Program-made: the position numbers and the translations under genes
Assembly: GCA_015146655.1 (NCBI GenBank)
Contig: VKHL01000084.1
Coordinates: 59,929 to 123,928, forward strand
Reading direction: 5' to 3'
Length of the DNA stretch: 64,000 nt
From: Ochromonas danica
Taxonomy: Eukaryota > Sar > Chrysophyceae > Chromulinales > Chromulinaceae
The notes under the pieces: generated by a model
What the model was told of the DNA's origin: nothing
Database searches by the model: none
Seen by the model: the letters and a program-made list of their open reading frames with translations, nothing else
Shown here: piece by piece, positions 14,904 to 45,913 of the stretch
Layout of the letters: the number at the start of each line of letters is the position of its first letter
Position numbering within the stretch: position 1 is the first letter of the stretch

Positions 14904-15215
14904 CGATCTTCAAGCAATTCTTCGCCTCCAAACCCTTGACTTTCTCTCGCAGGAGGTTCTCCCACGCACTACAACAATAGTTAACAATTTGATGGCATCC
15001 TCATCTTGAAAACCTCAAAATTCATCTTTTAAACCCTCAAAAGAGACGAAGGTTCGCTGGGTTGGTTTCAATCTCCGGGAAGATTCGTCATTCCCACGCA
15101 AGTAATAATATCAAGAGAGGATCGAGGCATGCCATCCCATTGCTTGCTGTCTGCAAATCTATTCCATAGCCACCCCGCCCCTTCTCTTTTCCTCCCCCTC
15201 TTCTTACCGTTTACC
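14904..15215. promoter_or_regulatory. Divergent promoter region ATM / ATP-grasp gene
   Basis: About 310 bp between two divergently transcribed genes, so it should hold both promoters and 5' UTRs. A loose direct repeat (AAAACCTCAAAA near 15008 and AAACCCTCAAAAGA near 15033) is visible. An in-frame upstream ATG at 15129 could extend the ATP-grasp protein by 29 residues. No other gene is seen. Confidence 0.4.
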
Positions 15216-18200
15216 ATGGAATTTGTGCATAAGAAAGGTCTTACTCGAGCTGTCACTTTTGATGATCGTAAGCGTGAAAATCACGGAGGAGGGTTCACTC
15301 GTCTCTCGAAGCGCGCGCAAACCTTCGTGGGCAAAACCGTTTCCGAGAAGAATGCCGAGGACCGACCTCTCTTTCCAGACATCATCTACAGAAGATATTT
15401 CGGCATGGAAGGACACAATACGCCTCACATCCCGCCCTTGAATCAGAACAAAGCCGTCCCTCTGGACCACAGCGTGACTGCCGAGGCCGGACCCTCGCAG
15501 ATCACAGAGAGAGACGCCGTGGTGGTCGTCGACACCTTCAGCACTGCGGCTATTCTTGCCAGCAGGCTCTATCACATGGGGTACAAGGTTATTTGCGTGC
15601 TGTCTGGCGACTTGAAGGATCTGCTCGCGATGATGCCCGAAGGCGTCGACCTCGTCTTCGAAGCCACTTTCGTCTTCAACACCGATCAAGAGCCTGACCT
15701 CGCTCTTGCCACTCTCATTAACCAAATTCGCTCGCTAGATCTGGACGTGAGAGCTGTGTTTGCTGGAGCAGAGACCGGTGTCGAGCTGGCTGACCAACTC
15801 TCCGAGCAAATGCACTTGCGTACCAATGGTACTGCTCTCAGTGAGGCCAGAAGAAACAAGTATGTGATGGGAGAAACGGTTCGATCAGCAGGTATCCGTG
15901 CAGTGAAGCAGTTGAAGGCGACGTCTTGGGGCGAGATTGAAGAATGGATCGAAGCATGGAATCCTGACCCTTTCAAAGTGATTGTGAAGCCCATGGATAG
16001 CGCGGGCTCTGACGATGTGACCCTTTGTCACAATCTCGAAGACGTGAAGCGAGCTTTTGGCAATATTATGGGCAAAGTGAATGGGCTTGGTATTGTGAAC
16101 AGAGCTGTCCTCGTGCAGGAGTACTTGGAAGGCGATGAATACGTCATCGACATGGTCAGTCGAGATGGAGAGCATAAGGTGATGGGCATTTGGGTGTATG
16201 ATCGCAGGGCTGTAAATGGAGCAGGTTTCGTGTGCTTTGGTCAGAAGTTATTGACGATCAACGATGAGCATTGCCAAGAGCTGGTGGAGTATCAGAAGAA
16301 GGTAATCACAGCGTTGGGCATAAAGAACGGACCAACCCACGGAGAGGTGAAGTGGTGCCGAGGAGAGCCCGTGCTTGTGGAAGTGGGGGCTCGTTGTCAT
16401 GGTGGAGATGGTTTGTGGGTGCAGATCGCCGAGGAATGCTATGGCTACAGTCAAGTCCAGGGAACCATCCTTTCCTACTTAGATGAAGCCAAGTTTAGGT
16501 CTCTTCCTCCTGTGGTAAGGTTTCCATATTAGCATATCTCACTGTGCGGTTGATGTTCTCATGGGATGCTGTGCGCAGCCAAGCGATGTGCTGGCCTACG
16601 GAAGGCTGAAGTGGTTGATTAACTACAAGGCGGGTACCTTTAACAGTGTGAGCACTGCAGGTTTGGAAGATATCAAAGCATTGGGCTCCTATCGCGGCCA
16701 TCAGATCTTCTTCGCTCCCGGAAAGAAGGTACATAAGACAAAGGACTGTTTTACTTGGGGTGGCTGCGCTATGTTGGCCAACAAATCGAAGGAAGTATTG
16801 CAAGCCGATTACTCGCGGTACTGCTGAATTGTCGTTCTTGCTGCGATTCCAATCATGTTAAGTTTTCATTTGTACTGTTGCATAGAATTGAACAATTGGA
16901 GAACAGCGATCTCTTTGATGTGGACGTAATCCAGGAACCTGTCGGAAGATCTCTTGTTGCCGTTGTTGATCCCTTTTCTACTGGCGCTGTACTTGCGGCC
17001 GACCTTGCCAAAACTGGTTACGGTATTGTGGCGGTTTACAGCGCCAAGCTCGAACAATTGGCGAATCTGCAGAATTTAGTTCCGGCTGGACTGACGATCG
17101 TGTTCGAGAGCATCATTGCATATGATGAAATCAACGTCATGGTCGACCAGCTTCGCAGTTGTGGAGAAATAGTTGCCATTTTCGCTGGAGCAGAGACCGG
17201 TGTCGAGCTGGCTGACCAACTCTCCGAGCAAATGCACTTGCGTACCAATGGTACTGCTCTCAGTGAGGCCAGAAGAAACAAGTATGTGATGGGAGAAACG
17301 GTTCGATCAGCAGGTATCCGTGCAGTGAAGCAGTTGAAGGCGACGTCTTGGGGCGAGATTGAAGAATGGATCGAAGCATGGAATCCTGACCCTTTCAAAG
17401 TGATTGTGAAGCCCATGGATAGCGCGGGCTCTGACGATGTGACCCTTTGTCACAATCTCGAAGACGTGAAGCGAGCTTTTGGCAATATTATGGGCAAAGT
17501 GAATGGGCTTGGTATTGTGAACAGAGCTGTCCTCGTGCAGGAGTACTTGGAAGGCGATGAATACGTCATCGACATGGTCAGTCGAGATGGAGAGCATAAG
17601 GTGATGGGCATTTGGGTGTATGATCGCAGGGCTGTAAATGGAGCAGGTTTCGTGTGCTTTGGTCAGAAGTTATTGACGATCAACGATGAGCATTGCCAAG
17701 AGCTGGTGGAGTATCAGAAGAAGGTAATCACAGCGTTGGGCATAAAGAACGGACCAACCCACGGAGAGGTGAAGTGGTGCCGAGGAGAGCCCGTGCTTGT
17801 GGAAGTGGGGGCTCGTTGCCACGGAGTGGAGGGCATGTGGCAAATTGTTGCCAATTATGGTTATGGCTATAACCAAGTCCAAGGCACAATTGATTCTTAT
17901 CTCAACTCTGCTGCCTTCAATGCTTATCCTTCAGCGGTAAGATTGCCTCTTTTTGTTATCTCTTTCAAAATCCTGACTCGTTGCTTGTCTGCAGCCTACT
18001 GTTTTGAGGAATTATGGGCGCATGTTGTTCTTGATCGCTTTTGACGAAGGCGTTTTGAAGGAAGTTGATCCTTCGCTGTTGGAGGAGATTCGTCGCATGC
18101 AGTCCGTTGTTGGAGTCGATTTGCTCGTCAAACCGGGGACATACGTATATAAAACCATCGACTGCTTTACCTTTGGAGGTGTTATTCGCCTCGTGAACGA

Positions 18201-22980: not shown

Positions 22981-23338
22981 CGATTGCTCTGCTGTGTTCC
23001 CTATTCTTCGCAATTCAATTCAAGCAATCATCTCTCAGCCCAGAATCTAGCGATCTGGGTATTTAGCCTAGAAGTCGGGCTGGTCTAGGACCACGTGATT
23101 AAGGTTACGGGTTACAGTACACATACCTAACAAACACATGAACACAACGTGGTGATGTTTCCATCAGGAGGTGAGAAAGAAATGGGAAAGTGGCCATGTC
23201 AATAGAGAGCCACGGATAAAAGAAAGGAAGATAAGACAAACCAAGCCTTCTCCAACTAGAAGAAGGTTGATTCGTCCGAAAAAGTGCAGGAGGAAGAACA
23301 GGTAACTTCGAGCTGAGAGGTTTATACTATGCGATCGA
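22981..23338. other. Intergenic: ATE1 promoter / RRM gene A 3' end
   Basis: About 360 bp between two minus-strand genes. It should hold the ATE1 promoter and the 3' UTR of RRM gene A. Homology to the inverted copy B stops at 23324, only 15 bp beyond the stop codon. No other element recognised. Confidence 0.5.
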
Positions 23339-26006
23339 TCATGCCGAAGAGTTCTCAGAGGTCGAAAGCATCTGATGGATCTTGCGACTGGCCGAGCGAT
23401 GAGCTTTGGGCTTGACAGAAGCTGCCGCAGCAGCAGCATCGCTCTCTGAAGAGGGCTGGAGGGCAATCATGTTCTCATTGCTACTGCCATGAGCATGGCC
23501 TGACGTGGAAGTGGAGGGAGAGGTGGGAGCCTTCGAGAACGGAGGTCGACCTTGTTGATGGCCACTGCCAGGTTTGAAGCGACTATTCTCTGAGAAAGGA
23601 TAGACAAAAGGAGACTCTTGGGGGTTGAGCGAAGGGAAAGGAGAGTAAGGAGAGGCATAAATAGGAGAGGCACCCATCATGATGGGAGGGACGGGCATCA
23701 GACTGGGGCTAGCCATGTATGCCGCAGGCATCGAATTGTTGCCCATGGGAGAGGACAAGAAGTGCAAGTAGCTCAGCTGCTCTTCCTTCAATGAGTCGCT
23801 TGACACAGAGCTCAGAGAAGGACTTTGTTGTGCCATGAGAGGCATGCCCATCATTAGTCCGCCTGGAGGACCAGCAGGCATCATCATGGGGCGAAGCTGA
23901 CTGCGCATCGTCTGACTCGGCGAGGAATAGGCGCGGTAGAGCTGCACAGGGCTTGGCACCATGTGTGCTTGGGTTGTAAAGAGGGTGCCATCTCTTGCCA
24001 GAGACACAGAGAGACCACCTGGAGGAGGGGCAGCAGTCGAGAAGGGACCAAGAACATTTCCAGCGGGAGGGGGCGGAGGGCCTGACAGAGGAGCGCCAGA
24101 TAATCCTGATTGATACCCCATCGGTCCAGAAGCTATCCCTGGGAGAGATGGTAAGAAGTTGCTATAATTGGTTGGAGGGCTAGGGGTAAAGGCTGCCATG
24201 GGCAAGGAGAGCGGCACAGCGTAATCAACCAGAGCTGCTGAAGAAGGACCGCCCAAAGAGGACATTTTATAACCACCCTCCGAAAGGCCTAGCTGCTGAT
24301 TTTGCTGTTGCTGCTGGAGCTGCTGCATTTGTTGGTGTTGGTGTTGTTGGTGTTGTTGCAGCTGCAACTGCTGCTGTTGCTGAAGCTGCTGCATTTGTTG
24401 TTGGTGCATGAGTTGCTGTTGTTTGTGTTGCAGTTGTTCTTGTTGCTGCTCCTGAAGCTGCACTTGTTGATGTTGTGGGTGCTCTTGCTGCTGTTCTTCT
24501 GACGTCTCTTGTTGTTGCTCCTGCTGCTCCTGTTGTTGCTGCTGCTGTTGCAACTGCTGCCGTAGTTGATGCCGTAGTTGCTGCTGAAGCTTTTGCTTTT
24601 GTTGCTGTACTCGCTGTTGCTGCAGTTGCTGCAGCTGTTGTTGCTGCTGCTGTAGTTGTTGTTGCTGCTGCTGTAGTTGTTGCTGCAACTGCTGCTGTTG
24701 TTGCTGTTCTAACCGCTGTTGTGCTTGTTGTTGCTGCTGCTGCAAAAGCAGAAGTTGTTGCTGCTGCAACTGCTGTTGCTGCACTTGTTGTTGCAGTTGC
24801 AACTGCTGTTGTTGCTGCTGTTGTTGCTGCTGCTGTTGTTGTTGAAGCAGGTTCAGCGCTGGTGCTCGAGGCAGGGTAGATCCAGGTACTGTCATTGGCG
24901 GAGGATGAGAAAGGCTGTGCAGTCCACTTGGTCTGCCACCTGCTCCTCCTAGTGATCCAAGCTCTCCCAAACCACGAGAACTGTTTGATTCAAACAAGCC
25001 AACGCCCCTCGTAGATGGAGATGGCTTGTACTCTCCAGCTCCTCCGTCTGGTACAGTATTTGAGGCTGAAGTGAAGGATTGTGTTGGTCTCAGCATAGGT
25101 GCCATCGGTGTCGGAGGAGCGAGTGGAACAGGAGGCGGAGTGGTAGAGACAGAGGACGAGCCGGAAGAAGAGGAAGAAGGAACAGGGCCATTTCTGCCCT
25201 CCAAACTCAGAGAATCCATGGGCACAGACAAATCCAACGGAATCTCTCTGTTCAGATACTTCAACAGAGTGTGGGAGAGCGAGCACTTGTAGTTCACTTC
25301 TTCAATCGTGGTATCTTGCAGAGCCTGGGCAGCGTCGATGGCAGCACGCACACCTTCCGCAGACATGTAGTAATAGACAAAGCCATAGCCACTCTGCTTG
25401 TTACCGCTACTGTCAATCACCGACTTCTTGATGCTGACATCTTGTACCACGCCATAGCGACGGAAGAGCTGTCGCAACGACTCCTCAGTCACCAGGTGGT
25501 GGAGCTGGTAGGAGATGAAGGAGACGTGGACAGGAGAATTGTGCACGCCATCAATGCGTGTCTCTCGCGAAGGTAGTTTGTTCTTATACGCCGCCCAGTT
25601 GATTCTAACAAGCCACAAGAGATACGACAGCAAGCACAAGAGGAACAAGAGCATATCATAATAACAATAGCGACAGGAGCAGCGCATAGAAGAGAAAGCA
25701 AAGGGAGAGAGAAAGAGCAAGACATCAGAGAGGTGAGGGACGATGATTGATTCACACTGTTGATCAAGCTCTCTACCTGATGGGACGACCACAAAAGACC
25801 TTGCCATTCAGCTGATCCATGGCCTCTTTCGCAGCAGCCGCGTGGACGAACTTGATGAAGCCATAGGAGAGGTTACGATTGGTCTCCTCGCTGCGCATGA
25901 TCTTGATCTCGGCGATCTCGCCGAAGGGGCGGAAGGCCGTTTCAATATCTTTCTCAGTGCAGAAGATGGCCAGGTCTCCCAGGAAGAGAGTGGTCTTGTT
26001 CGCGGG
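23324..26006 (-). repeat. Inverted duplication, arm A
   Basis: 2,683 bp matching 39669-41991 on the opposite strand. The edges fall inside codon 7 (first shared codon CCC) and 15 bp after the stop. Coding sequence and the 172-bp intron agree in all stretches I compared; the only large difference is 360 bp more in the CAA/CAG tract of this arm. Confidence 0.9.
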
Positions 26007-26024
26007 ATTTTGCAGAATGCTCAT
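23339..26024 (-). CDS. Two-RRM, polyglutamine RNA-binding protein, copy A
   Basis: RNA-binding protein with two RRMs and a long disordered C-terminus. Exons 26024-25777 and 25604-23339 with a 172-bp phase-2 intron give 837 residues. RRM1 has RNP2 LFLGDL and RNP1 LSYGFIKF and ends GRPIRINWAAYK as in TIA-1/PABP-like proteins. RRM2 has VHVSFISYQL and SGYGFVYY. A Gln-rich tract of about 187 residues (24293-24845) is followed by a Pro/Met/Ser-rich region and a basic tail, KPKAHRSASRKIHQML. The likely role is post-transcriptional regulation, perhaps in condensates; that is inference. It is almost identical to the plus-strand copy at 39627-41976, except for a different N-terminal hexapeptide (MSILQN) and 120 extra Gln-rich residues. 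The intron is identical in the two copies. Confidence 0.88.
24293..24845 (-). repeat. CAA/CAG polyglutamine tract, expanded
   Basis: Mixed CAA/CAG repeat (seen as TTG/CTG on the plus strand) coding about 187 Gln-rich residues interrupted by Leu, His, Arg and Glu. Copy B has only about 67 residues here. The mixture of both codons shows it is not a pure recent triplet expansion. Confidence 0.9.
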
Positions 26025-26844
26025 ATTTATCTACAGATTATTTGTTATATTTGAGCTGAGTCTGGCACCAATCGAAGGAAAAGAAACAGACACAAAATAA
26101 TTTTATTGGATGACAGAAAAGAACAGAGAAAGAGAAACCAAGATACTACGCTGAGAAAGACTCAGAGAGTGGGTGGAGGGAGAATGGGAGGGTCGGTCAC
26201 AATGAGACCCAGAGAGGGAGAAGGAGGAAAACTATCAGACAATAGGTGAGGAAGGAACTTCTTCTTCCAAGCGTTTTCACTAAGGGAATACAGAACAAAG
26301 CCAATGTAATCCAGGACAATTACTATCCGCTCTGCTGTTATCGGCCACCTGCTTGCTCACACTCCCCTGCCAGCCTGGCCTGCACTTGGTGGCACTCACT
26401 CCCACGCACAACAAGAAGGGCGGGGACACGCAAACACAACACACACAGAGCCAAAAGTTCTGGCTGTGGGCCACAGAAATTTCACCCAAAATTTTGACAG
26501 CGAAGTCCCAACTTTTTTCATCTCTTTCTTCACGAACTAAACAAATGACAGAAGTTAATAATGGTAAATTTAAGTCTTGCGCGGAATGTCAGGGGGCGGT
26601 GTGGCTTCACACAAATGCACCACACACTGCACACAGATTAGACTATTTCCTCGACTACATTACATCCGTTGCGAACTTTCATTGTATTCAGTCAGTAGTA
26701 GATGTGGTGAAGATGTGATGTTATGAATGATACAAAAGCAAATGGGCTCTACTCAATGCCCTACGAACTAACGAGCCTGGTTCCGCTCTGCAAGTCCACC
26801 ACATACAAAAACAACAAACTATACAGTAGAACACACAGTGCTTA
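26025..26844. other. Intergenic: RRM gene A promoter and array 3' flank
   Basis: 820 bp between RRM gene A and the first phosphatase copy, both on the minus strand. The part from about 26717 to 26832 is a diverged relative of the spacer sequence that follows each later phosphatase copy (for example shared ACGAACTAACGAGCCT). The part before that shows CA-rich low complexity around 26425-26450 but no recognisable gene or RNA. Confidence 0.5.
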
Positions 26845-27750
26845 CTATTGCACATCAACTTCGACTAGTTTTGAGAAGTTGTGTAGATCGCCTCCAGCTT
26901 CATTCCATGCTGCCAAGAAGCGATTCACACTGCGAAAATGGAAGACCTCGTTTTCGACGACAGCACGCTGCTTCTTCAACAACACTTTGGCCTCTTCCGG
27001 TGCCAGTCCCTCGGCCACAAGGAGACAGAAAGTGAGAGCAGCCGATCGACCTCGTCCGGCTTTACAATGGACAAATACCTTTCCCCCGCCTTTAATTGCT
27101 TGCTTGGCGAGGATAACGCCTCGTGCTAGATCGTCAAACGACGGCTCGCAAATGTCTGGCGTGGGCAATCGCAGCTGCTGGACCTTGCAAAAGTCATAGT
27201 CCTCCTGAGGTCCACCATACTCTCTGCACAGGTTGACGACAAACGACACCCCATTGGAGACCAGGAAAGGAACATCTCGTGCCAAGGGCATCGAGCCGAT
27301 GGCCAAGTTGGTCGTCACTTGGGAGTAGAATGGACACAGTGCACGACCGCCCAGTCCATCCATGATATAGACCCAGCCAAGAAGTGGGACATCCCAGAAG
27401 ACCGTCTGCAGCATAAGGAAGAGCGAGCTGGCTGGCTGGTGTGGTTGTTTGTAGAAGACCACGCCATTAATTGGCAAGTAGACCAGCAGAAGGAAGAACC
27501 TGCCCAGCAGGAAGCTGAGAGGCCAAGTCAAGGTGAGGGTATAGACTATCCAGATGACTGAGAGGAAGGCACCAGTTGTCACGGTGAGACGTACCCCCAA
27601 TGTGGTCAGCGCGAAGTAGGGCAGCAAGGCGAAAAGCTGAGGCAGTTGAGGGAAGAAGAGAAGGTAGAGGAAGGACAGGAAGGGGACGATGAAGGCCAAG
27701 AGTTTCTTTGAACTGGACATGACTTTACTAATTACATCAGTAGAGCTCAT
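26845..27750 (-). CDS. Membrane-anchored dual-specificity phosphatase, copy 1
   Basis: 301 residues. The N-terminal ~100 residues are hydrophobic with three or four predicted membrane segments (about 16-34, 38-60, 62-76, 78-100). The C-terminal cysteine phosphatase domain is like that of PTPMT1 and related phosphatases: signature HCKAGRGRS with nucleophile C229 and R235, and general-acid candidate D199 in LPTPDICEPS. PTPMT1 relatives dephosphorylate phosphatidylglycerophosphate or phosphoinositides; a lipid substrate would suit the membrane anchor, but this is inference. All catalytic residues are intact. The downstream 3' flank differs from the other copies by many substitutions and indels, although the coding region is identical to copies 2-4. 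Confidence 0.85.
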   Translation of the reverse strand: MSSTDVISKVMSSSKKLLAFIVPFLSFLYLLFFPQLPQLFALLPYFALTTLGVRLTVTTGAFLSVIWIVYTLTLTWPLSFLLGRFFLLLVYLPINGVVFYKQPHQPASSLFLMLQTVFWDVPLLGWVYIMDGLGGRALCPFYSQVTTNLAIGSMPLARDVPFLVSNGVSFVVNLCREYGGPQEDYDFCKVQQLRLPTPDICEPSFDDLARGVILAKQAIKGGGKVFVHCKAGRGRSAALTFCLLVAEGLAPEEAKVLLKKQRAVVENEVFHFRSVNRFLAAWNEAGGDLHNFSKLVEVDVQ

Positions 27751-28426
27751 GACTCGCTGTTAATTGATATAATGGGCATGACAGCTTTTCCGTGGCAAAA
27801 CCTGAATTGTGGAATTACACAAAACCTTTGCGACAAGTTTGGCGTAAACCTGTGTATACTGCCGATCTGTAAAGATTCGAGACCACATTGCAAAGACCGC
27901 GTGATTTTGCTCCTTCCATCTTTCCACCTTTGTGGGTGTTAAGAGTCGGATAAGCGAAGTTTTGGCAATAAAATACACTCTAGCTGAGTGTTGGGAGGTC
28001 GTCCAGCATCTCATCGTAGGACATAGATGTCAGTACGATAGCGTTGGTATCTAAGCAGGCGCTTACAGAGGGGCGAAGAGTATCTGCTGCGTAAGCGAGA
28101 GAAGAAGAGGGTGGGTCGAAAATGAGCGATAGTTGAAAGGAGAATTCTCTTTTTGTCAGCATGTTGCCGCTGGTAGAAGCGAATATTGGCCGTCTGACAT
28201 TCGGAAGATAGCCTTTGCCAGATCGATGTTAGTATGGCATAGATAGTGAATGAGAGACAATCAGCAGGAGGCAGAAAAGTACACTATTAATGATAGAAAA
28301 GTGAGCAGGTACTCAATACCCTACGAACTAACGAGCCTAGTTCCGCTATGTAAATCCACCATATACAAAATCACAAACTATAGATATACAAAGTGTGCAG
28401 TCACCAAGCAGTATACACAGTGCTTA
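27751..28426 (-). other. Array spacer (repeated at 29333, 30915 and 32497)
   Basis: 676-bp spacer between phosphatase copies, repeated identically four times. It must carry the promoter of the downstream copy and the 3' end of the upstream one. It holds short minus-strand frames of 84 and 60 codons that resemble nothing known and have no supporting features, so I do not call them genes. Confidence 0.6.
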
Positions 28427-29332
28427 CTATTGCACATCAACTTCGACTAGTTTTGAGAAGTTGTGTAGATCGCCTCCAGCTTCATTCCATGCTGCCAAGA
28501 AGCGATTCACACTGCGAAAATGGAAGACCTCGTTTTCGACGACAGCACGCTGCTTCTTCAACAACACTTTGGCCTCTTCCGGTGCCAGTCCCTCGGCCAC
28601 AAGGAGACAGAAAGTGAGAGCAGCCGATCGACCTCGTCCGGCTTTACAATGGACAAATACCTTTCCCCCGCCTTTAATTGCTTGCTTGGCGAGGATAACG
28701 CCTCGTGCTAGATCGTCAAACGACGGCTCGCAAATGTCTGGCGTGGGCAATCGCAGCTGCTGGACCTTGCAAAAGTCATAGTCCTCCTGAGGTCCACCAT
28801 ACTCTCTGCACAGGTTGACGACAAACGACACCCCATTGGAGACCAGGAAAGGAACATCTCGTGCCAAGGGCATCGAGCCGATGGCCAAGTTGGTCGTCAC
28901 TTGGGAGTAGAATGGACACAGTGCACGACCGCCCAGTCCATCCATGATATAGACCCAGCCAAGAAGTGGGACATCCCAGAAGACCGTCTGCAGCATAAGG
29001 AAGAGCGAGCTGGCTGGCTGGTGTGGTTGTTTGTAGAAGACCACGCCATTAATTGGCAAGTAGACCAGCAGAAGGAAGAACCTGCCCAGCAGGAAGCTGA
29101 GAGGCCAAGTCAAGGTGAGGGTATAGACTATCCAGATGACTGAGAGGAAGGCACCAGTTGTCACGGTGAGACGTACCCCCAATGTGGTCAGCGCGAAGTA
29201 GGGCAGCAAGGCGAAAAGCTGAGGCAGTTGAGGGAAGAAGAGAAGGTAGAGGAAGGACAGGAAGGGGACGATGAAGGCCAAGAGTTTCTTTGAACTGGAC
29301 ATGACTTTACTAATTACATCAGTAGAGCTCAT
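28427..29332 (-). CDS. Membrane-anchored dual-specificity phosphatase, copy 2
   Basis: Protein identical to copy 1 (301 residues, same C229/R235 signature). Spacers on both sides are identical to those around copies 3 and 4, so this unit lies inside the homogenised part of the array. Confidence 0.85.
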   Translation of the reverse strand: MSSTDVISKVMSSSKKLLAFIVPFLSFLYLLFFPQLPQLFALLPYFALTTLGVRLTVTTGAFLSVIWIVYTLTLTWPLSFLLGRFFLLLVYLPINGVVFYKQPHQPASSLFLMLQTVFWDVPLLGWVYIMDGLGGRALCPFYSQVTTNLAIGSMPLARDVPFLVSNGVSFVVNLCREYGGPQEDYDFCKVQQLRLPTPDICEPSFDDLARGVILAKQAIKGGGKVFVHCKAGRGRSAALTFCLLVAEGLAPEEAKVLLKKQRAVVENEVFHFRSVNRFLAAWNEAGGDLHNFSKLVEVDVQ

Positions 29333-30008
29333 GACTCGCTGTTAATTGATATAATGGGCATGACAGCTTTTCCGTGGCAAAACCTGAATTGTGGAATTAC
29401 ACAAAACCTTTGCGACAAGTTTGGCGTAAACCTGTGTATACTGCCGATCTGTAAAGATTCGAGACCACATTGCAAAGACCGCGTGATTTTGCTCCTTCCA
29501 TCTTTCCACCTTTGTGGGTGTTAAGAGTCGGATAAGCGAAGTTTTGGCAATAAAATACACTCTAGCTGAGTGTTGGGAGGTCGTCCAGCATCTCATCGTA
29601 GGACATAGATGTCAGTACGATAGCGTTGGTATCTAAGCAGGCGCTTACAGAGGGGCGAAGAGTATCTGCTGCGTAAGCGAGAGAAGAAGAGGGTGGGTCG
29701 AAAATGAGCGATAGTTGAAAGGAGAATTCTCTTTTTGTCAGCATGTTGCCGCTGGTAGAAGCGAATATTGGCCGTCTGACATTCGGAAGATAGCCTTTGC
29801 CAGATCGATGTTAGTATGGCATAGATAGTGAATGAGAGACAATCAGCAGGAGGCAGAAAAGTACACTATTAATGATAGAAAAGTGAGCAGGTACTCAATA
29901 CCCTACGAACTAACGAGCCTAGTTCCGCTATGTAAATCCACCATATACAAAATCACAAACTATAGATATACAAAGTGTGCAGTCACCAAGCAGTATACAC
30001 AGTGCTTA

Positions 30009-30914
30009 CTATTGCACATCAACTTCGACTAGTTTTGAGAAGTTGTGTAGATCGCCTCCAGCTTCATTCCATGCTGCCAAGAAGCGATTCACACTGCGAA
30101 AATGGAAGACCTCGTTTTCGACGACAGCACGCTGCTTCTTCAACAACACTTTGGCCTCTTCCGGTGCCAGTCCCTCGGCCACAAGGAGACAGAAAGTGAG
30201 AGCAGCCGATCGACCTCGTCCGGCTTTACAATGGACAAATACCTTTCCCCCGCCTTTAATTGCTTGCTTGGCGAGGATAACGCCTCGTGCTAGATCGTCA
30301 AACGACGGCTCGCAAATGTCTGGCGTGGGCAATCGCAGCTGCTGGACCTTGCAAAAGTCATAGTCCTCCTGAGGTCCACCATACTCTCTGCACAGGTTGA
30401 CGACAAACGACACCCCATTGGAGACCAGGAAAGGAACATCTCGTGCCAAGGGCATCGAGCCGATGGCCAAGTTGGTCGTCACTTGGGAGTAGAATGGACA
30501 CAGTGCACGACCGCCCAGTCCATCCATGATATAGACCCAGCCAAGAAGTGGGACATCCCAGAAGACCGTCTGCAGCATAAGGAAGAGCGAGCTGGCTGGC
30601 TGGTGTGGTTGTTTGTAGAAGACCACGCCATTAATTGGCAAGTAGACCAGCAGAAGGAAGAACCTGCCCAGCAGGAAGCTGAGAGGCCAAGTCAAGGTGA
30701 GGGTATAGACTATCCAGATGACTGAGAGGAAGGCACCAGTTGTCACGGTGAGACGTACCCCCAATGTGGTCAGCGCGAAGTAGGGCAGCAAGGCGAAAAG
30801 CTGAGGCAGTTGAGGGAAGAAGAGAAGGTAGAGGAAGGACAGGAAGGGGACGATGAAGGCCAAGAGTTTCTTTGAACTGGACATGACTTTACTAATTACA
30901 TCAGTAGAGCTCAT
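30009..30914 (-). CDS. Membrane-anchored dual-specificity phosphatase, copy 3
   Basis: Protein identical to copies 1, 2 and 4. It is the central unit, with no distinguishing base noticed in gene or spacers, so it cannot be told from copies 2 and 4 by sequence alone. Confidence 0.85.
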   Translation of the reverse strand: MSSTDVISKVMSSSKKLLAFIVPFLSFLYLLFFPQLPQLFALLPYFALTTLGVRLTVTTGAFLSVIWIVYTLTLTWPLSFLLGRFFLLLVYLPINGVVFYKQPHQPASSLFLMLQTVFWDVPLLGWVYIMDGLGGRALCPFYSQVTTNLAIGSMPLARDVPFLVSNGVSFVVNLCREYGGPQEDYDFCKVQQLRLPTPDICEPSFDDLARGVILAKQAIKGGGKVFVHCKAGRGRSAALTFCLLVAEGLAPEEAKVLLKKQRAVVENEVFHFRSVNRFLAAWNEAGGDLHNFSKLVEVDVQ

Positions 30915-31590
30915 GACTCGCTGTTAATTGATATAATGGGCATGACAGCTTTTCCGTGGCAAAACCTGAATTGTGGAATTACACAAAACCTTTGCGACAA
31001 GTTTGGCGTAAACCTGTGTATACTGCCGATCTGTAAAGATTCGAGACCACATTGCAAAGACCGCGTGATTTTGCTCCTTCCATCTTTCCACCTTTGTGGG
31101 TGTTAAGAGTCGGATAAGCGAAGTTTTGGCAATAAAATACACTCTAGCTGAGTGTTGGGAGGTCGTCCAGCATCTCATCGTAGGACATAGATGTCAGTAC
31201 GATAGCGTTGGTATCTAAGCAGGCGCTTACAGAGGGGCGAAGAGTATCTGCTGCGTAAGCGAGAGAAGAAGAGGGTGGGTCGAAAATGAGCGATAGTTGA
31301 AAGGAGAATTCTCTTTTTGTCAGCATGTTGCCGCTGGTAGAAGCGAATATTGGCCGTCTGACATTCGGAAGATAGCCTTTGCCAGATCGATGTTAGTATG
31401 GCATAGATAGTGAATGAGAGACAATCAGCAGGAGGCAGAAAAGTACACTATTAATGATAGAAAAGTGAGCAGGTACTCAATACCCTACGAACTAACGAGC
31501 CTAGTTCCGCTATGTAAATCCACCATATACAAAATCACAAACTATAGATATACAAAGTGTGCAGTCACCAAGCAGTATACACAGTGCTTA

Positions 31591-32496
31591 CTATTGCACA
31601 TCAACTTCGACTAGTTTTGAGAAGTTGTGTAGATCGCCTCCAGCTTCATTCCATGCTGCCAAGAAGCGATTCACACTGCGAAAATGGAAGACCTCGTTTT
31701 CGACGACAGCACGCTGCTTCTTCAACAACACTTTGGCCTCTTCCGGTGCCAGTCCCTCGGCCACAAGGAGACAGAAAGTGAGAGCAGCCGATCGACCTCG
31801 TCCGGCTTTACAATGGACAAATACCTTTCCCCCGCCTTTAATTGCTTGCTTGGCGAGGATAACGCCTCGTGCTAGATCGTCAAACGACGGCTCGCAAATG
31901 TCTGGCGTGGGCAATCGCAGCTGCTGGACCTTGCAAAAGTCATAGTCCTCCTGAGGTCCACCATACTCTCTGCACAGGTTGACGACAAACGACACCCCAT
32001 TGGAGACCAGGAAAGGAACATCTCGTGCCAAGGGCATCGAGCCGATGGCCAAGTTGGTCGTCACTTGGGAGTAGAATGGACACAGTGCACGACCGCCCAG
32101 TCCATCCATGATATAGACCCAGCCAAGAAGTGGGACATCCCAGAAGACCGTCTGCAGCATAAGGAAGAGCGAGCTGGCTGGCTGGTGTGGTTGTTTGTAG
32201 AAGACCACGCCATTAATTGGCAAGTAGACCAGCAGAAGGAAGAACCTGCCCAGCAGGAAGCTGAGAGGCCAAGTCAAGGTGAGGGTATAGACTATCCAGA
32301 TGACTGAGAGGAAGGCACCAGTTGTCACGGTGAGACGTACCCCCAATGTGGTCAGCGCGAAGTAGGGCAGCAAGGCGAAAAGCTGAGGCAGTTGAGGGAA
32401 GAAGAGAAGGTAGAGGAAGGACAGGAAGGGGACGATGAAGGCCAAGAGTTTCTTTGAACTGGACATGACTTTACTAATTACATCAGTAGAGCTCAT
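31591..32496 (-). CDS. Membrane-anchored dual-specificity phosphatase, copy 4
   Basis: Protein identical to copies 1-3. The spacer between its start codon and copy 5 (32497-33172) is the standard one, so its promoter should be equivalent to those of copies 1-3. Confidence 0.85.
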   Translation of the reverse strand: MSSTDVISKVMSSSKKLLAFIVPFLSFLYLLFFPQLPQLFALLPYFALTTLGVRLTVTTGAFLSVIWIVYTLTLTWPLSFLLGRFFLLLVYLPINGVVFYKQPHQPASSLFLMLQTVFWDVPLLGWVYIMDGLGGRALCPFYSQVTTNLAIGSMPLARDVPFLVSNGVSFVVNLCREYGGPQEDYDFCKVQQLRLPTPDICEPSFDDLARGVILAKQAIKGGGKVFVHCKAGRGRSAALTFCLLVAEGLAPEEAKVLLKKQRAVVENEVFHFRSVNRFLAAWNEAGGDLHNFSKLVEVDVQ

Positions 32497-33172
32497 GACT
32501 CGCTGTTAATTGATATAATGGGCATGACAGCTTTTCCGTGGCAAAACCTGAATTGTGGAATTACACAAAACCTTTGCGACAAGTTTGGCGTAAACCTGTG
32601 TATACTGCCGATCTGTAAAGATTCGAGACCACATTGCAAAGACCGCGTGATTTTGCTCCTTCCATCTTTCCACCTTTGTGGGTGTTAAGAGTCGGATAAG
32701 CGAAGTTTTGGCAATAAAATACACTCTAGCTGAGTGTTGGGAGGTCGTCCAGCATCTCATCGTAGGACATAGATGTCAGTACGATAGCGTTGGTATCTAA
32801 GCAGGCGCTTACAGAGGGGCGAAGAGTATCTGCTGCGTAAGCGAGAGAAGAAGAGGGTGGGTCGAAAATGAGCGATAGTTGAAAGGAGAATTCTCTTTTT
32901 GTCAGCATGTTGCCGCTGGTAGAAGCGAATATTGGCCGTCTGACATTCGGAAGATAGCCTTTGCCAGATCGATGTTAGTATGGCATAGATAGTGAATGAG
33001 AGACAATCAGCAGGAGGCAGAAAAGTACACTATTAATGATAGAAAAGTGAGCAGGTACTCAATACCCTACGAACTAACGAGCCTAGTTCCGCTATGTAAA
33101 TCCACCATATACAAAATCACAAACTATAGATATACAAAGTGTGCAGTCACCAAGCAGTATACACAGTGCTTA

Positions 33173-34078
33173 CTATTGCACATCAACTTCGACTAGTTTT
33201 GAGAAGTTGTGTAGATCGCCTCCAGCTTCATTCCATGCTGCCAAGAAGCGATTCACACTGCGAAAATGGAAGACCTCGTTTTCGACGACAGCACGCTGCT
33301 TCTTCAACAACACTTTGGCCTCTTCCGGTGCCAGTCCCTCGGCCACAAGGAGACAGAAAGTGAGAGCAGCCGATCGACCTCGTCCGGCTTTACAATGGAC
33401 AAATACCTTTCCCCCGCCTTTAATTGCTTGCTTGGCGAGGATAACGCCTCGTGCTAGATCGTCAAACGACGGCTCGCAAATGTCTGGCGTGGGCAATCGC
33501 AGCTGCTGGACCTTGCAAAAGTCATAGTCCTCCTGAGGTCCACCATACTCTCTGCACAGGTTGACGACAAACGACACCCCATTGGAGACCAGGAAAGGAA
33601 CATCTCGTGCCAAGGGCATCGAGCCGATGGCCAAGTTGGTCGTCACTTGGGAGTAGAATGGACACAGTGCACGACCGCCCAGTCCATCCATGATATAGAC
33701 CCAGCCAAGAAGTGGGACATCCCAGAAGACCGTCTGCAGCATAAGGAAGAGCGAGCTGGCTGGCTGGTGTGGTTGTTTGTAGAAGACCACGCCATTAATT
33801 GGCAAGTAGACCAGCAGAAGGAAGAACCTGCCCAGCAGGAAGCTGAGAGGCCAAGTCAAGGTGAGGGTATAGACTATCCAGATGGTACAGAGGAAAACAC
33901 CACCAGCCATAGTCGTGTACACTCCATTAGCGATCAGCGCCAAGTAAGGCAGCAAGGCGACAAGCTGTGGTAGTTGAGGGAAGAAGAGAAGGTAGAGGAA
34001 GGACAGGAAGGGGACGATGAAGGCCAAGAGCTTTTCCGAAATGATCGGGGCTTTACTTTTAGTATCAGTAGAGCTCAT
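33173..34078 (-). CDS. Membrane-anchored dual-specificity phosphatase, copy 5 (divergent N-terminus)
   Basis: 301 residues, identical to the other copies from about residue 65 onward, including the whole catalytic domain. Residues 6-64 differ: it starts MSSTDTKSKAPIISEK and has LIANGVYTTMAGGVFLC where the others have LTTLGVRLTVTTGAFLS. Within this stretch short blocks (residues ~17-39) remain the same, so the N-terminus is a mosaic. Being the outermost upstream unit, it has its own promoter (34079-34343), unlike copies 1-4, whose upstream sequence is the array spacer. The altered membrane region could change localisation. Confidence 0.85.
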   Translation of the reverse strand: MSSTDTKSKAPIISEKLLAFIVPFLSFLYLLFFPQLPQLVALLPYLALIANGVYTTMAGGVFLCTIWIVYTLTLTWPLSFLLGRFFLLLVYLPINGVVFYKQPHQPASSLFLMLQTVFWDVPLLGWVYIMDGLGGRALCPFYSQVTTNLAIGSMPLARDVPFLVSNGVSFVVNLCREYGGPQEDYDFCKVQQLRLPTPDICEPSFDDLARGVILAKQAIKGGGKVFVHCKAGRGRSAALTFCLLVAEGLAPEEAKVLLKKQRAVVENEVFHFRSVNRFLAAWNEAGGDLHNFSKLVEVDVQ

Positions 34079-34343
34079 GGCTCGGCGTTAATTGATAATG
34101 AGACATGGAGTGGATCTTTAGTTGTTCTCCTTCTCCTGGGAACTAATTCTCCTCATTGCTCGCCACCCCCGGCCACCAACAAACAGCAAACCTGAAACTT
34201 CCCATTCCATAACTCACATTTCAAGAGATAGAAAGCCAACTCCGACTACACTTCCATCAAACCAATCTCTTTAGTATTCGCACGCAACACAATAATATCG
34301 AACACACCCAAATTCGCAGTTGCCCAAACCTCAATCAAAGGCC
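34079..34343. promoter_or_regulatory. Divergent promoter, phosphatase copy 5 / orphan gene
   Basis: 265 bp between divergent start codons. The first ~25 bp next to copy 5 still resemble the array spacer (GTTAATTGATA); the remainder is unique. No core promoter motif recognised. Confidence 0.4.
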
Positions 34344-39626: not shown

Positions 39627-41976
39627 ATGATGAACAACAACATGATGATGATGAACAATCATCACCACCCCGCGAACAAGACCACTCTCTTCCTGGGAGA
39701 CCTGGCCATCTTCTGCACTGAGAAAGATATTGAAACGGCCTTCCGCCCCTTCGGCGAGATCGCCGAGATCAAGATCATGCGCAGCGAGGAGACCAATCGT
39801 AACCTCTCCTATGGCTTCATCAAGTTCGTCCACGCGGCTGCTGCGAAAGAGGCCATGGATCAGCTGAATGGCAAGGTCTTTTGTGGTCGTCCCATCAGGT
39901 AGAGAGCTTGATCAACAGTGTGAATCAATCATCGTCCCTCACCTCTCTGATGTCTTGCTCTTTCTCTCTCCCTTTGCTTTCTCTTCTATGCGCTGCTCCT
40001 GTCGCTATTGTTATTATGATATGCTCTTGTTCCTCTTGTGCTTGCTGTCGTATCTCTTGTGGCTTGTTAGAATCAACTGGGCGGCGTATAAGAACAAACT
40101 ACCTTCGCGAGAGACACGCATTGATGGCGTGCACAATTCTCCTGTCCACGTCTCCTTCATCTCCTACCAGCTCCACCACCTGGTGACTGAGGAGTCGTTG
40201 CGACAGCTCTTCCGTCGCTATGGCGTGGTACAAGATGTCAGCATCAAGAAGTCGGTGATTGACAGTAGCGGTAACAAGCAGAGTGGCTATGGCTTTGTCT
40301 ATTACTACATGTCTGCGGAAGGTGTGCGTGCTGCCATCGACGCTGCCCAGGCTCTGCAAGATACCACGATTGAAGAAGTGAACTACAAGTGCTCGCTCTC
40401 CCACACTCTGTTGAAGTATCTGAACAGAGAGATTCCGTTGGATTTGTCTGTGCCCATGGATTCTCTGAGTTTGGAGGGCAGAAATGGCCCTGTTCCTTCT
40501 TCCTCTTCTTCCGGCTCGTCCTCTGTCTCTACCACTCCGCCTCCTGTTCCACTCGCTCCTCCGACACCGATGGCACCTATGCTGAGACCAACACAATCCT
40601 TCACTTCAGCCTCAAATACTGTACCAGACGGAGGAGCTGGAGAGTACAAGCCATCTCCATCTACGAGGGGCGTTGGCTTGTTTGAATCAAACAGTTCTCG
40701 TGGTTTGGGAGAGCTTGGATCACTAGGAGGAGCAGGTGGCAGACCAAGTGGACTGCACAGCCTTTCTCATCCTCCGCCAATGACAGTACCTGGATCTACC
40801 CTGCCTCGAGCACCAGCGCTGAACCTGCTTCAACAACATCAACACCATCAAGTGCAGCTTCAGGAGCAGCAACAAGAACAACTGCAACACAAACAACAGC
40901 AACTCATGCACCAACAACAAATGCAGCAGCTTCAGCAACAGCAGCAGTTGCAGCTGCAACAACACCAACAACACCAACACCAACAAATGCAGCAGCTCCA
41001 GCAGCAACAGCAAAATCAGCAGCTAGGCCTTTCGGAGGGTGGTTATAAAATGTCCTCTTTGGGCGGTCCTTCTTCAGCAGCTCTGGTTGATTACGCTGTG
41101 CCGCTCTCCTTGCCCATGGCAGCCTTTACCCCTAGCCCTCCAACCAATTATAGCAACTTCTTACCATCTCTCCCAGGGATAGCTTCTGGACCGATGGGGT
41201 ATCAATCAGGATTATCTGGCGCTCCTCTGTCAGGCCCTCCGCCCCCTCCCGCTGGAAATGTTCTTGGTCCCTTCTCGACTGCTGCCCCTCCTCCAGGTGG
41301 TCTCTCTGTGTCTCTGGCAAGAGATGGCACCCTCTTTACAACCCAAGCACACATGGTGCCAAGCCCTGTGCAGCTCTACCGCGCCTATTCCTCGCCGAGT
41401 CAGACGATGCGCAGTCAGCTTCGCCCCATGATGATGCCTGCTGGTCCTCCAGGCGGACTAATGATGGGCATGCCTCTCATGGCACAACAAAGTCCTTCTC
41501 TGAGCTCTGTGTCAAGCGACTCATTGAAGGAAGAGCAGCTGAGCTACTTGCACTTCTTGTCCTCTCCCATGGGCAACAATTCGATGCCTGCGGCATACAT
41601 GGCTAGCCCCAGTCTGATGCCCGTCCCTCCCATCATGATGGGTGCCTCTCCTATTTATGCCTCTCCTTACTCTCCTTTCCCTTCGCTCAACCCCCAAGAG
41701 TCTCCTTTTGTCTATCCTTTCTCAGAGAATAGTCGCTTCAAACCTGGCAGTGGCCATCAACAAGGTCGACCTCCGTTCTCGAAGGCTCCCACCTCTCCCT
41801 CCACTTCCACGTCAGGCCATGCTCATGGCAGTAGCAATGAGAACATGATTGCCCTCCAGCCCTCTTCAGAGAGCGATGCTGCTGCTGCGGCAGCTTCTGT
41901 CAAGCCCAAAGCTCATCGCTCGGCCAGTCGCAAGATCCATCAGATGCTTTCGACCTCTGAGAACTCTTCGGCATGA
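39627..41976 (+). CDS. Two-RRM, polyglutamine RNA-binding protein, copy B
   Basis: 725 residues from exons 39627-39898 and 40071-41976 (172-bp intron, phase 2, identical to that of copy A). The N-terminus is unique, a Met/Asn/His-rich run (MMNNNMMMMNNHHH) that replaces MSILQN of copy A; both join at the same proline codon before RRM1. The Gln-rich region is only about 67 residues (40826-41024) with a compact junction LLQQHQHHQVQLQ. RRMs, Pro/Met-rich region and basic tail match copy A. Different promoter and different polyQ length mean the two genes could have divided expression or condensate-forming behaviour. Confidence 0.88.
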
Positions 41977-41991
41977 TCGATCGCATAGTAT
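39669..41991 (+). repeat. Inverted duplication, arm B
   Basis: 2,323 bp matching 23324-26006 in reverse orientation, about 13.7 kb away. The length difference of 360 bp is explained entirely by the Gln tract. Confidence 0.9.
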
Positions 41992-43148: not shown

Positions 43149-44509
43149 TCAAAAGAGTTTGCCGTAGGAACTCCATTCATCTCTGCTTACAGGATCAGAA
43201 GAAGAAGAAAACAAGAACCCTGGGGCTGCACTGGCAGAGGAAGAGAACTCTGAGCCAAAAGGGAGATAGAGGCCTTTCTGGTCTTTCTCGCTCTCGTGAT
43301 CGTCTGTCGATAGGCGAAGGAGGTGGTCATAAAAGGCCAAATTGCCGGTATTGTTGTCACGCAGAGGACTGTTTAAAGGATGAGGAGCACTAATAGCAGC
43401 AGTGACGGCCGCATTGCCCGTGGAAGAGGATGAGAGAAGGCCAGGCAGCAGGTCGGTCTTTGGTTGAGGTTGCTGTGGGTGGGTATTCATCCAACTCTGG
43501 GAATGCGGCACTCCTGTCTGGAGTGTAGATATCGATGGCATTTGGTGGTGATGCATAGGTGCAAGAGAAGATCCAGGACCAACAGCAGGAGGAGGAGGTG
43601 GTGGCAGGGAGGGAATGCCCCCAGGGAAGTTGAACTCGTCCTGCAGGCCCATGTTAGCCATCCAACGAGAAGAGGAGTGGTCGTGCACATTGTCAACGGT
43701 GCGCGACTTCCACTCCATTCCACGATCCGCCATCGCGGAGTGGCCGTTATATGGAGTAGAAAACCTGTCCATGGAGTGCATGGTCATCATTGGCTCAGAT
43801 CGGACGTGGCTCTCGTGCAATTGTTCAATACGCTGGCTTTGCATATCTACCAAATGCTTCTCTAAATTGTGTGAAATAGAGCATTTGTAGCACACACCAT
43901 CAATAGTGGTATCGTTCAAAGCAGCCACAGCAGCTAGAGCAGACTCGATTCCCTCTGGCGAGCAAGAGTAATGTACGAAACCATATCCGCACTGGCGATT
44001 GATGGACTCGTCGATATAGGACTTCTTGATGGAGGTATCAAGCACCACTCCATAGGCACTGAAGAGCACACGCAGAGACTCCTCGGTGATCAGTCTCTTG
44101 AGCTGGTACGAGATGTAGGAGACGTGGATGGAGGAGGACTCGATGCGGTCGTGGTGGAAGGCAGTCTTGGGCTCCTTGCGATTCTTGTAACTCGCCCAGC
44201 CGATCCTATTCAGACAAGGAAGTGAGCAACCTAGTCATCTCAAGCGAGTAGAAGGAAGCGTGGCTGTTACCTTAAATTCCTTCCACAGAAGAGCACGCCA
44301 TTCAATCCATTCATGGCCTTCTTGGCTGCCGCGGGGTGGGCGAACTTGATGAAGCCATAGGAGAGGTTGCGGTAGGTCTCCTCGCTGCGCATGATCTTGA
44401 TCTCCAGGACTTCACCATAGGGTGCAAAGACGTTGTGGATGTCTCGCTCTGTGCAGAATGTGGAGAGATCTCCTAAGAACAAGGTAGTCTTATTGTGGGC
44501 CATCATCAT
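43149..44509 (-). CDS. Two-RRM RNA-binding protein, diverged paralogue C
   Basis: 431 residues from exons 44509-44271 and 44205-43149 (65-bp intron). The intron has the same position and phase as in copies A and B (splitting the Arg codon before IGWASYKN / INWAAYKN), which shows common origin. RRM1 (LFLGDL, LSYGFIKF) and RRM2 (VHVSYISYQL, CGYGFVHY) are clearly homologous to A and B. The C-terminal half is a different Pro/His/Ser-rich disordered region without polyglutamine. Divergent from the DUSP12 gene. Confidence 0.85.
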
Positions 44510-44887: not shown

Positions 44888-45913
44888 ATGAAGGAGATTG
44901 CTGACGAAGGGATCTTTGTATCCGACCTAGAGACGATGAATCTCCTACTAAGTCAAGGAGGTGGAGCTCTGAGGGAAAGTGAGGTGGGAGCGATCATTTC
45001 CATCGGATGCTCCTTGTCCTTGTCCTGCACTGCCCCGTGCGTGCAGGATAACTGGATTTCCACCGTGGAGGTGGTGTCTTTCCCTGACGTAGCTGATGAC
45101 CCCTGCGTCTGCTTGCTACCTCTCTGGACGATAAGCAATCAAGTCATCTGTGCAGCGCGCAGTCGCGGTAGGAAAGTTGTGCTGCATTGCGTCTACGGCC
45201 AGTCGCGCTCTGCGGCCACGGCGCTGGCCTTCCTCCTCATGGAGCGAGGCTCTTCCTTCTCCGCGGCCTTTGAGAAGGTGAGCACAAGTCGCCATGGCGT
45301 CTGCATTAACCCGGGCCTCCTCGCGCAGCTTTGCTTTGTTGAGCGCCGAGCTGACCACGCGGCAGCCTTCCGCGCCATGCGCCATTTCTACTCCCCGTAT
45401 ATCGCCTCGCCACGGGTCTGCCGTCTTGACGGCTCATCGATCGAGACCTCTAGCTTGACAATCGCTCAATCAACGCAGTCGTCAGCAGCAGCTGTCTTGG
45501 GAGGAGGGCGAGTGCTGGCGTGCAAGAAGTGCCGCGCCATTCTGTGCGATGAGACAGACCTCATCGAGAAGTCCTGCGACACCTCATCCTTTGTCGATCA
45601 ACATGTGAATGCCTATTGGAGAAACGTCTGGCAGTATGATATCTCTCGTCGCTACCTGAAGCTCGAGGCGGTGCAGCCCCCAGCACGGAATGGATGGATT
45701 GTCTGTCCGCAGCCCTGGATGAAGGATCAGCAGGTCAGAGCTCCGCCACAATCCGCAGGCCCAGGTCACGATAGTCAATGTGTTGCCTATTTATCGTGCG
45801 AGTGCGGCCAAAGGGTTGGCAGCTGGCGCCGCGATGCCTTGTTGCTGTGCTTCCCGCTGCCTTTGCTGTGCGACCTTTTCCTCCTGGACCCCGCCAAAGT
45901 CAGAAGATATTGA
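44888..45913 (+). CDS. DUSP12: DUSP12/Yvh1-like dual-specificity phosphatase
   Basis: 341 residues, single exon. N-terminal phosphatase domain with signature HCVYGQSRS (nucleophile C101, R107) and an acidic loop FPDVADDP (~66-72) in the general-acid position. C-terminal zinc-binding region: ACKKCRAILC (~212-221) and SCECGQRVGSW (~304-314), corresponding to the Cys motifs of Yvh1/DUSP12, with a final KVRRY like the family's end. Yvh1 releases Mrt4 from pre-60S ribosomes through its zinc domain; the same role here is inferred. Unlike the array phosphatases it has no membrane segment, so the two are not recent relatives. Confidence 0.8.
   Translation: MKEIADEGIFVSDLETMNLLLSQGGGALRESEVGAIISIGCSLSLSCTAPCVQDNWISTVEVVSFPDVADDPCVCLLPLWTISNQVICAARSRGRKVVLHCVYGQSRSAATALAFLLMERGSSFSAAFEKVSTSRHGVCINPGLLAQLCFVERRADHAAAFRAMRHFYSPYIASPRVCRLDGSSIETSSLTIAQSTQSSAAAVLGGGRVLACKKCRAILCDETDLIEKSCDTSSFVDQHVNAYWRNVWQYDISRRYLKLEAVQPPARNGWIVCPQPWMKDQQVRAPPQSAGPGHDSQCVAYLSCECGQRVGSWRRDALLLCFPLPLLCDLFLLDPAKVRRY

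Follow-up and report, generated by a model that had tools for sequence, protein, structure and literature searches.

A five-copy tandem array of a putatively membrane-anchored phosphatase gene in Ochromonas danica, with identical cores and diverged ends

A stretch of 64,000 nucleotides of Ochromonas danica (contig VKHL01000084.1, here C84, positions 59929-123928; hereafter the window), belonging to a genome assembly of 31.2 Mb in 337 contigs, carries five tandem copies of a gene whose 301-residue product combines hydrophobic N-terminal segments, presumably transmembrane (TM), with a dual-specificity phosphatase (DSP) domain. With a probability of roughly 60%, the array arose by unequal crossing-over of two diverged neighbouring paralogues whose core was shared by gene conversion, and the encoded protein is most likely a membrane lipid phosphatase. 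The system resembles an ordinary gene amplification, probably a young one, with copies that appear to be kept near identical by DNA exchange, and not a new kind of system. The features of the array are as follows, in window coordinates, where L and R denote the left and right versions that are set apart below.

26723-26832, no strand: L-type 3' flank of copy 1, diverged, with 82.3% identity to the R-type 3' flank of the unit
26833-33884, no strand: core repeated perfectly with a period of 1582 bp (4.46 units)
26845-27750, minus strand: copy 1, TM-plus-DSP phosphatase of 301 residues (open reading frame and domain search)
27751-28426, no strand: spacer 1 of 676 bp, made up of the 3' flank of copy 2 and the region upstream of copy 1 (sequence comparison)
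28427-29332, minus strand: copy 2, identical to copy 1
29333-30008, no strand: spacer 2, identical to the other spacers
30009-30914, minus strand: copy 3, identical to copy 1
30915-31590, no strand: spacer 3, identical to the other spacers
31591-32496, minus strand: copy 4, identical to copy 1
32497-33172, no strand: spacer 4, identical to the other spacers
33173-34078, minus strand: copy 5, codons 66-301 as in the others, 46 nucleotide differences in codons 6-65
33885-34078, minus strand: R-type N-terminal coding sequence of copy 5, diverged but mosaic in that codons 16-39 are nearly identical to the other copies
34079-34319, no strand: sequence upstream of copy 5, with no relation to the 676-bp spacers after the first 27 bp or so

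The open reading frame (ORF) list of the window contains five minus-strand ORFs of 301 codons with a start-to-start spacing of 1,582 bp, and a single unbroken exact self-match at lag 1582 covers 5,470 bases (26833-32302 against 28415-33884), the perfectly periodic part amounting to 7,052 bp. The genes of copies 1-4 are identical to one another, and all four 676-bp spacers are one sequence. The exact period and the identity of the spacers and of the encoded proteins of copies 1-4 had been claimed in an initial annotation of this DNA, and the self-match and the sequence comparison bear both claims out; the outer limits that it drew, 26717 and 34105, lie about where weaker homology stops. Because no difference occurs among the 5,470 matched bases, the last homogenisation is placed at less than about 5e-4 changes per site (3/5,470). 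A search of the genome, which took the best candidates and hence gives a lower bound on copy number, recovered the five array copies together with a broken remnant of the unit on contig C32 and a set of remoter DSP paralogues; no further full-length copy of the array gene was found among these best candidates.

The two ends of the array are mosaic. Between copy 5 and copies 1-4 there are 46 differences in 906 nucleotides, every one of them within nucleotides 16-194 (codons 6-65), and random placement would gather all 46 in one such stretch with a chance of about 1.6e-32; codons 66-301 are identical across the five copies, and the last 712 nucleotides are without any difference. Over codons 1-66, copy 5 stands at a synonymous distance (dS) of 0.43 and a nonsynonymous distance (dN) of 0.23 from the other copies. 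Within this part, codons 16-39 hold 3 synonymous and 0 amino-acid differences and are flanked by strongly diverged blocks. Homology to the spacer extends about 27 bp upstream of copy 5 and ends there, and a divergent ORF begins at 34320 on the plus strand, with this upstream region between it and copy 5. The suggestion that each unit carries its own promoter thus applies at most to copies 1-4, where such a promoter is putative, as the upstream region of copy 5 is unrelated. At the opposite end, the 3' flank of copy 1 shares 82.3% identity with that of the unit (102/124 aligned bases, 42 gap columns aside). Bacterial-type promoters and terminators scored near chance level in a scan of the spacer, a scan type unsuited to a eukaryote, and no RNA elements were found at gathering thresholds in 20000-46000.

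The remnant on C32 (G000:C32:57843-58233; L016 4353-4734) retains part of the core, a few codons at the end of the gene and some 116 bp of 3' flank, most of the catalytic part being gone. Its core matches the array core at 178 of 201 positions (89%, dS 0.26) and its 3' flank matches the R type at 93/116 (80%, local alignment). In a three-way alignment of the flanks, identity is 82.3% between L and R, 76.6% (111/145) between C32 and R, and 67.6% (92/136) between C32 and L; the L and R flanks resemble one another a little more than either resembles C32, yet are far from identical. Since these flanks are 82% identical and the N-termini differ at dS 0.43, the cores of L and R were expected to differ as well, but no difference was found. 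The units are more alike mutually than to an outgroup copy and the ends of the array are diverged, which is the pattern of concerted evolution. Homogeneous units with diverged ends are likewise known from ribosomal DNA (rDNA), a tandem array under concerted evolution, and from algal antenna-protein genes; unlike these, the phosphatase array is short (five copies) and has a single-gene unit, and a phosphatase is not a bulk product.

These observations would be accounted for if two older, diverged paralogues had lain side by side, L on the left and R on the right. An unequal crossover between them would have produced a unit in which the 3' flank is of R type, the phosphatase core is common to both, and the N-terminus and upstream region are of L type; this unit would then have been amplified in tandem. 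Gene conversion, or an equivalent double exchange, would have spread the catalytic core across all five genes, so that the old divergence of L and R would survive solely at the two outer ends. If the copies are expressed, as we suppose, the extra genes would raise dose, and this might be of benefit to the cell. The initial annotation had offered the array as either very young or actively homogenised. Both may hold, and the either/or is not needed: the unit looks recently amplified, and the core common to the diverged end copies needs exchange too.

Formally, the same arrangement could come about by amplification with no gene conversion, L and R being joined by two crossovers, one near codon 65 and one shortly after the stop codon, before amplification of the product. 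Two breakpoints would be enough, and recent amplification alone would give a perfect unit such as the one seen; however, a double exchange inside a paralogue pair is hard to distinguish from a conversion tract, and both the patchy N-terminus of copy 5 (codons 16-39) and the other perfect cores in the genome favour conversion. We therefore regard this alternative as improbable.

These other cores came from an exact-duplicate check that covered 131 kb, namely the window plus loci picked for their matches, which are not a random sample. Perfect duplicates of at least 400 bp occur there in three other paralogue groups, those of light-harvesting proteins (LHC), RRM proteins and ATP-grasp proteins, with cores of 413-1,170 bp. 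On contig C224 (L021/L022, about 8240-17292), which starts with 5,491 N, an LHC gene tandem array has a period of 2,407 bp and an exact self-match of 6,646 bases, and LHC cores compared between contigs C23 and C224 and within C23 are exact over 413-440 bp inside alignments of 88-96% identity. Within the window, a pair of ATP-grasp genes (15762-16396 and 17184-17818) shares an identical 635-bp core with diverged ends, and an inverted pair of RRM-protein genes (23324-26024 and 39669-41991) flanks the phosphatase array and is identical over 1,170 and 1,143 bp. The RRM pair differs mainly in a glutamine-rich stretch, and detectable similarity runs from close to the ATG to about 15 bp beyond the stop. 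A third stretch, 75% alike, lies at 44283-44494, and a coiled-coil gene at 51920-53283 has an internal duplication at lag 900, exact over 464 bp. Conversion mediated by cDNA is disfavoured, as the RRM pair is identical also across the intron-like stretch, a putative intron, between its two RRM-bearing ORFs.

The phosphatase array is thus one example of a local tendency to perfect duplicates, which limits how special its identity is. A bolder proposal is that ectopic gene conversion operates genome-wide, tending to cover catalytic or coding cores and to leave N-termini and flanks diverged, so that one core would come to stand under several targeting or regulatory ends, with the array as one instance; we hold this only tentatively and think it doubtful. 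According to PMC4351107, gene conversion has been put forward for LHC genes of Symbiodinium and Euglena, and a dinoflagellate has its PCP genes in long identical arrays.

The proposed history has to be weighed against the possibility that the array is an assembly artefact, in which expansion or polishing turned an array of smaller (or larger) size into identical units and neither copy number nor perfect identity is biological. The internal units are identical even in non-coding DNA, and this all-or-nothing pattern recurs in the LHC array on C224, as an artefact would predict. However, the 64-kb window is free of N, and the contig continues through the array of about 7.4 kb into unique sequence on both sides, which presumably needed bridging data; the end versions, about 80% identical, were kept apart in the assembly; and perfect cores occur also between loci on different contigs (C23 and C224) with different flanks. 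An artefact accordingly seems rather unlikely to us. One further point weighs against the proposed history, which is drawn from a single assembly: among the other perfect cores with diverged surroundings, some may stem from recent duplication and not from conversion.

Turning to the protein, Pfam models PF22784, PF22785 and PF00782 score over their cut-offs within residues 147-270, and the hallmarks of a DSP catalytic domain are all present, namely DSPc over cut-off, a C-x5-R P-loop and a general-acid Asp. The P-loop HCKAGRGRS holds C229 and R235, with D199 as the likely general acid; H228, C229, K230, A231, G232, R233, R235 and D199 are invariant in 20/20 rows of an alignment (A2) of 18 of the 23 loci L027-L049 and two window proteins. 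An AlphaFold2 model built with 20 sequences, 18 of them planctomycete, gave 10-residue means of predicted local distance difference test (pLDDT) of 94-98 across residues 141-290, and a single-sequence model with a mean pLDDT of 45 was discarded. The TM-plus-phosphatase form described in the initial annotation is upheld by the hydrophobic N-terminal segments together with the DSP domain over cut-offs. Mitochondrial PTPMT1 (PDB 3rgo) and DUSP23 (PDB 2img/4erc) share the fold and catalytic residues of the array protein, and were practically tied as top Foldseek matches (TM-score by target 0.83 for DUSP23 and 0.77 for PTPMT1). In sequence matches to the PDB, DUSP23 (3.8e-9) and PTPMT1 (1.2e-8) again scored about equal, and at 28-32% identity to both the array protein is assignable to neither.

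Bacterial and archaeal relatives were taken as the best 80 of 112, all found via one peptide pattern around the P-loop. Among these best 80, the top 23 loci (L027-L049, E 1e-32 to 2e-20) are planctomycete in 22 cases, the remaining one, L045, being assigned to a bacterium, and identity to the array protein is 30-43% for the 13 best bacterial matches listed. A tree of 55 rows was built from 49 of the 80 loci, four proteins of the genome and two PDB chains, with 31 loci dropped, nearly all of Rhodobacterales type, and with rows trimmed around the domain except for C15 and the PDB parts. The array protein and a pair of proteins from C14 and C15 fall in a 28-row group (support 88/95) that is otherwise planctomycete but for L045, L057 and L068, and this group joins that of mouse PTPMT1 in a group of 35 rows (86/90). 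Neither of these groupings is a starred branch, and inside the 28-row group the array protein pairs with the long-branch rows L057 and L068, which according to a warning of the program may be a false join. The group that holds a protein of contig C46 (92/85) also contains mouse PTPMT1, one verrucomicrobial and four chlamydial rows, and the top PDB match of this protein is 3rgo (E 4.2e-14). By sequence, C46 and not the array protein is the best PTPMT1 candidate of the genome, and among the DSPs compared the array protein is not the closest to mouse PTPMT1, as PTPMT1 in the strict sense (the mitochondrial orthologue) would be. The earlier label of PTPMT1-like therefore stands broadly, through the joined groups, and not in its narrow meaning.

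Like the planctomycete PTPMT1 branch, the array protein has N-x-C-x-E and HCKAGR-x-R-S patterns. It differs in about 130 residues of N-terminal hydrophobic helices, whereas the ORFs at L027-L049, chosen by script and with start sites unchecked, are 147-232 residues long and 22/23 are without a hydrophobic segment at the threshold used; moreover, the alga has a five-copy array, whereas each of the seven planctomycete genomes searched (7/7) gave one match at E 1e-8 or better. The layout is not unique to the array, because chlamydial L062 and L066 are TM-plus-DSP proteins (255-270 residues, two hydrophobic segments ahead of the domain) and C46, which has hydrophobic stretches ahead of its domain by eye and aligns to chlamydial L085 nearly full length (32% over 250), is built alike. 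A viral origin was set aside: no relative was found in viral contigs, searched with a single protein for close relatives only, or in phage records.

The likely substrate would be a membrane phospholipid, phosphatidylglycerophosphate (PGP)-like or phosphoinositide-like. A mammalian-type PGP phosphatase of the planctomycete Rhodopirellula baltica was reportedly described by Teh in 2013, a work cited in PMC5573378; because this enzyme has been published, a phospholipid is the first-guess substrate for the branch, and the R. baltica enzyme probably belongs to the clade of the array protein. Furthermore, the lysine-bearing P-loop CKAGRGR is typical of lipid-acting members. On function only, the array protein could instead be a protein-tyrosine or dual-specificity protein phosphatase in membrane signalling: DUSP23, DUSP28 and others score level with PTPMT1 by sequence and structure. 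Against this stand the planctomycete PTPMT1-like proteins as the best prokaryotic relatives found, the reported Rhodopirellula enzyme and the presumed lipid-type P-loop, and we consider a protein phosphatase possible but not probable. Overall, the odds appear about even between a membrane lipid phosphatase with a specialised role and a membrane protein phosphatase or an enzyme with another substrate.

It should be noted that several results weigh against a membrane-anchored lipid phosphatase. AlphaFold2 placed N-terminal helices at 3-32, 38-50, 57-74, 78-95 and 109-132 with block means of pLDDT of only 42-75, and a hydropathy scan found three hydrophobic segments against these five modelled helices. 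The argument for a lipid substrate draws on the P-loop pattern and on the clade, and the NCBIfam match, PRK12361 (hypothetical protein), reached 34 bits against a cut-off of 505 and is uninformative on function. Among 20 scanned neighbour ORFs (105 listed) at planctomycete loci, no phospholipid-synthase family was present, and 7 of these 20 were AhpC/TSA peroxiredoxin ORFs, situated upstream of the planctomycete PTPMT1-like gene (L030, L032, L039, L043, L045, L048 and L049). In addition, the genome has a match to PF09419 (PGP_phosphatase) on contig C205, which we take to be of GEP4 type; because of this match and the PTPMT1-type C46, the housekeeping role of PGP phosphatase is not vacant.

Searches of listed open-licence full texts gave no title describing such a phosphatase array. 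If the units are real, they are a clean natural case of a probably young array whose ends preserve both parental versions, in which the order of crossover and conversion is readable. The perfect cores in the LHC, RRM and ATP-grasp groups point to conversion as a possibly frequent event in this alga; this, if true, would affect the dating of gene families and the stability of introduced tandem transgenes. The protein itself is predicted to be a membrane-anchored form of its branch, for which planctomycete proteins were the closest relatives found among prokaryotes, and may be of use for understanding algal membrane lipids.

The genome has 47 LHC matches, counted exon by exon, and is for this reason taken as that of a eukaryotic photosynthetic alga. 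In the PDB, seven multi-unit chains of 9vfj rank ahead of chain XLH12 of 9m4f, the best single-domain LHC match, and a silicon-transporter match is weak (E 1.3e-11); PsaA/B and 5.8S rRNA models had no match in the genome. The antennae are probably fucoxanthin- or violaxanthin-protein-like, and the alga appears not to be a typical diatom. The genome also has 25 DSPc matches, 20 of them over cut-off, and the array makes up 5/20. A second dual-specificity phosphatase ORF (DSPc, 52 bits) lies at 44888-45913, about 11 kb from the array.

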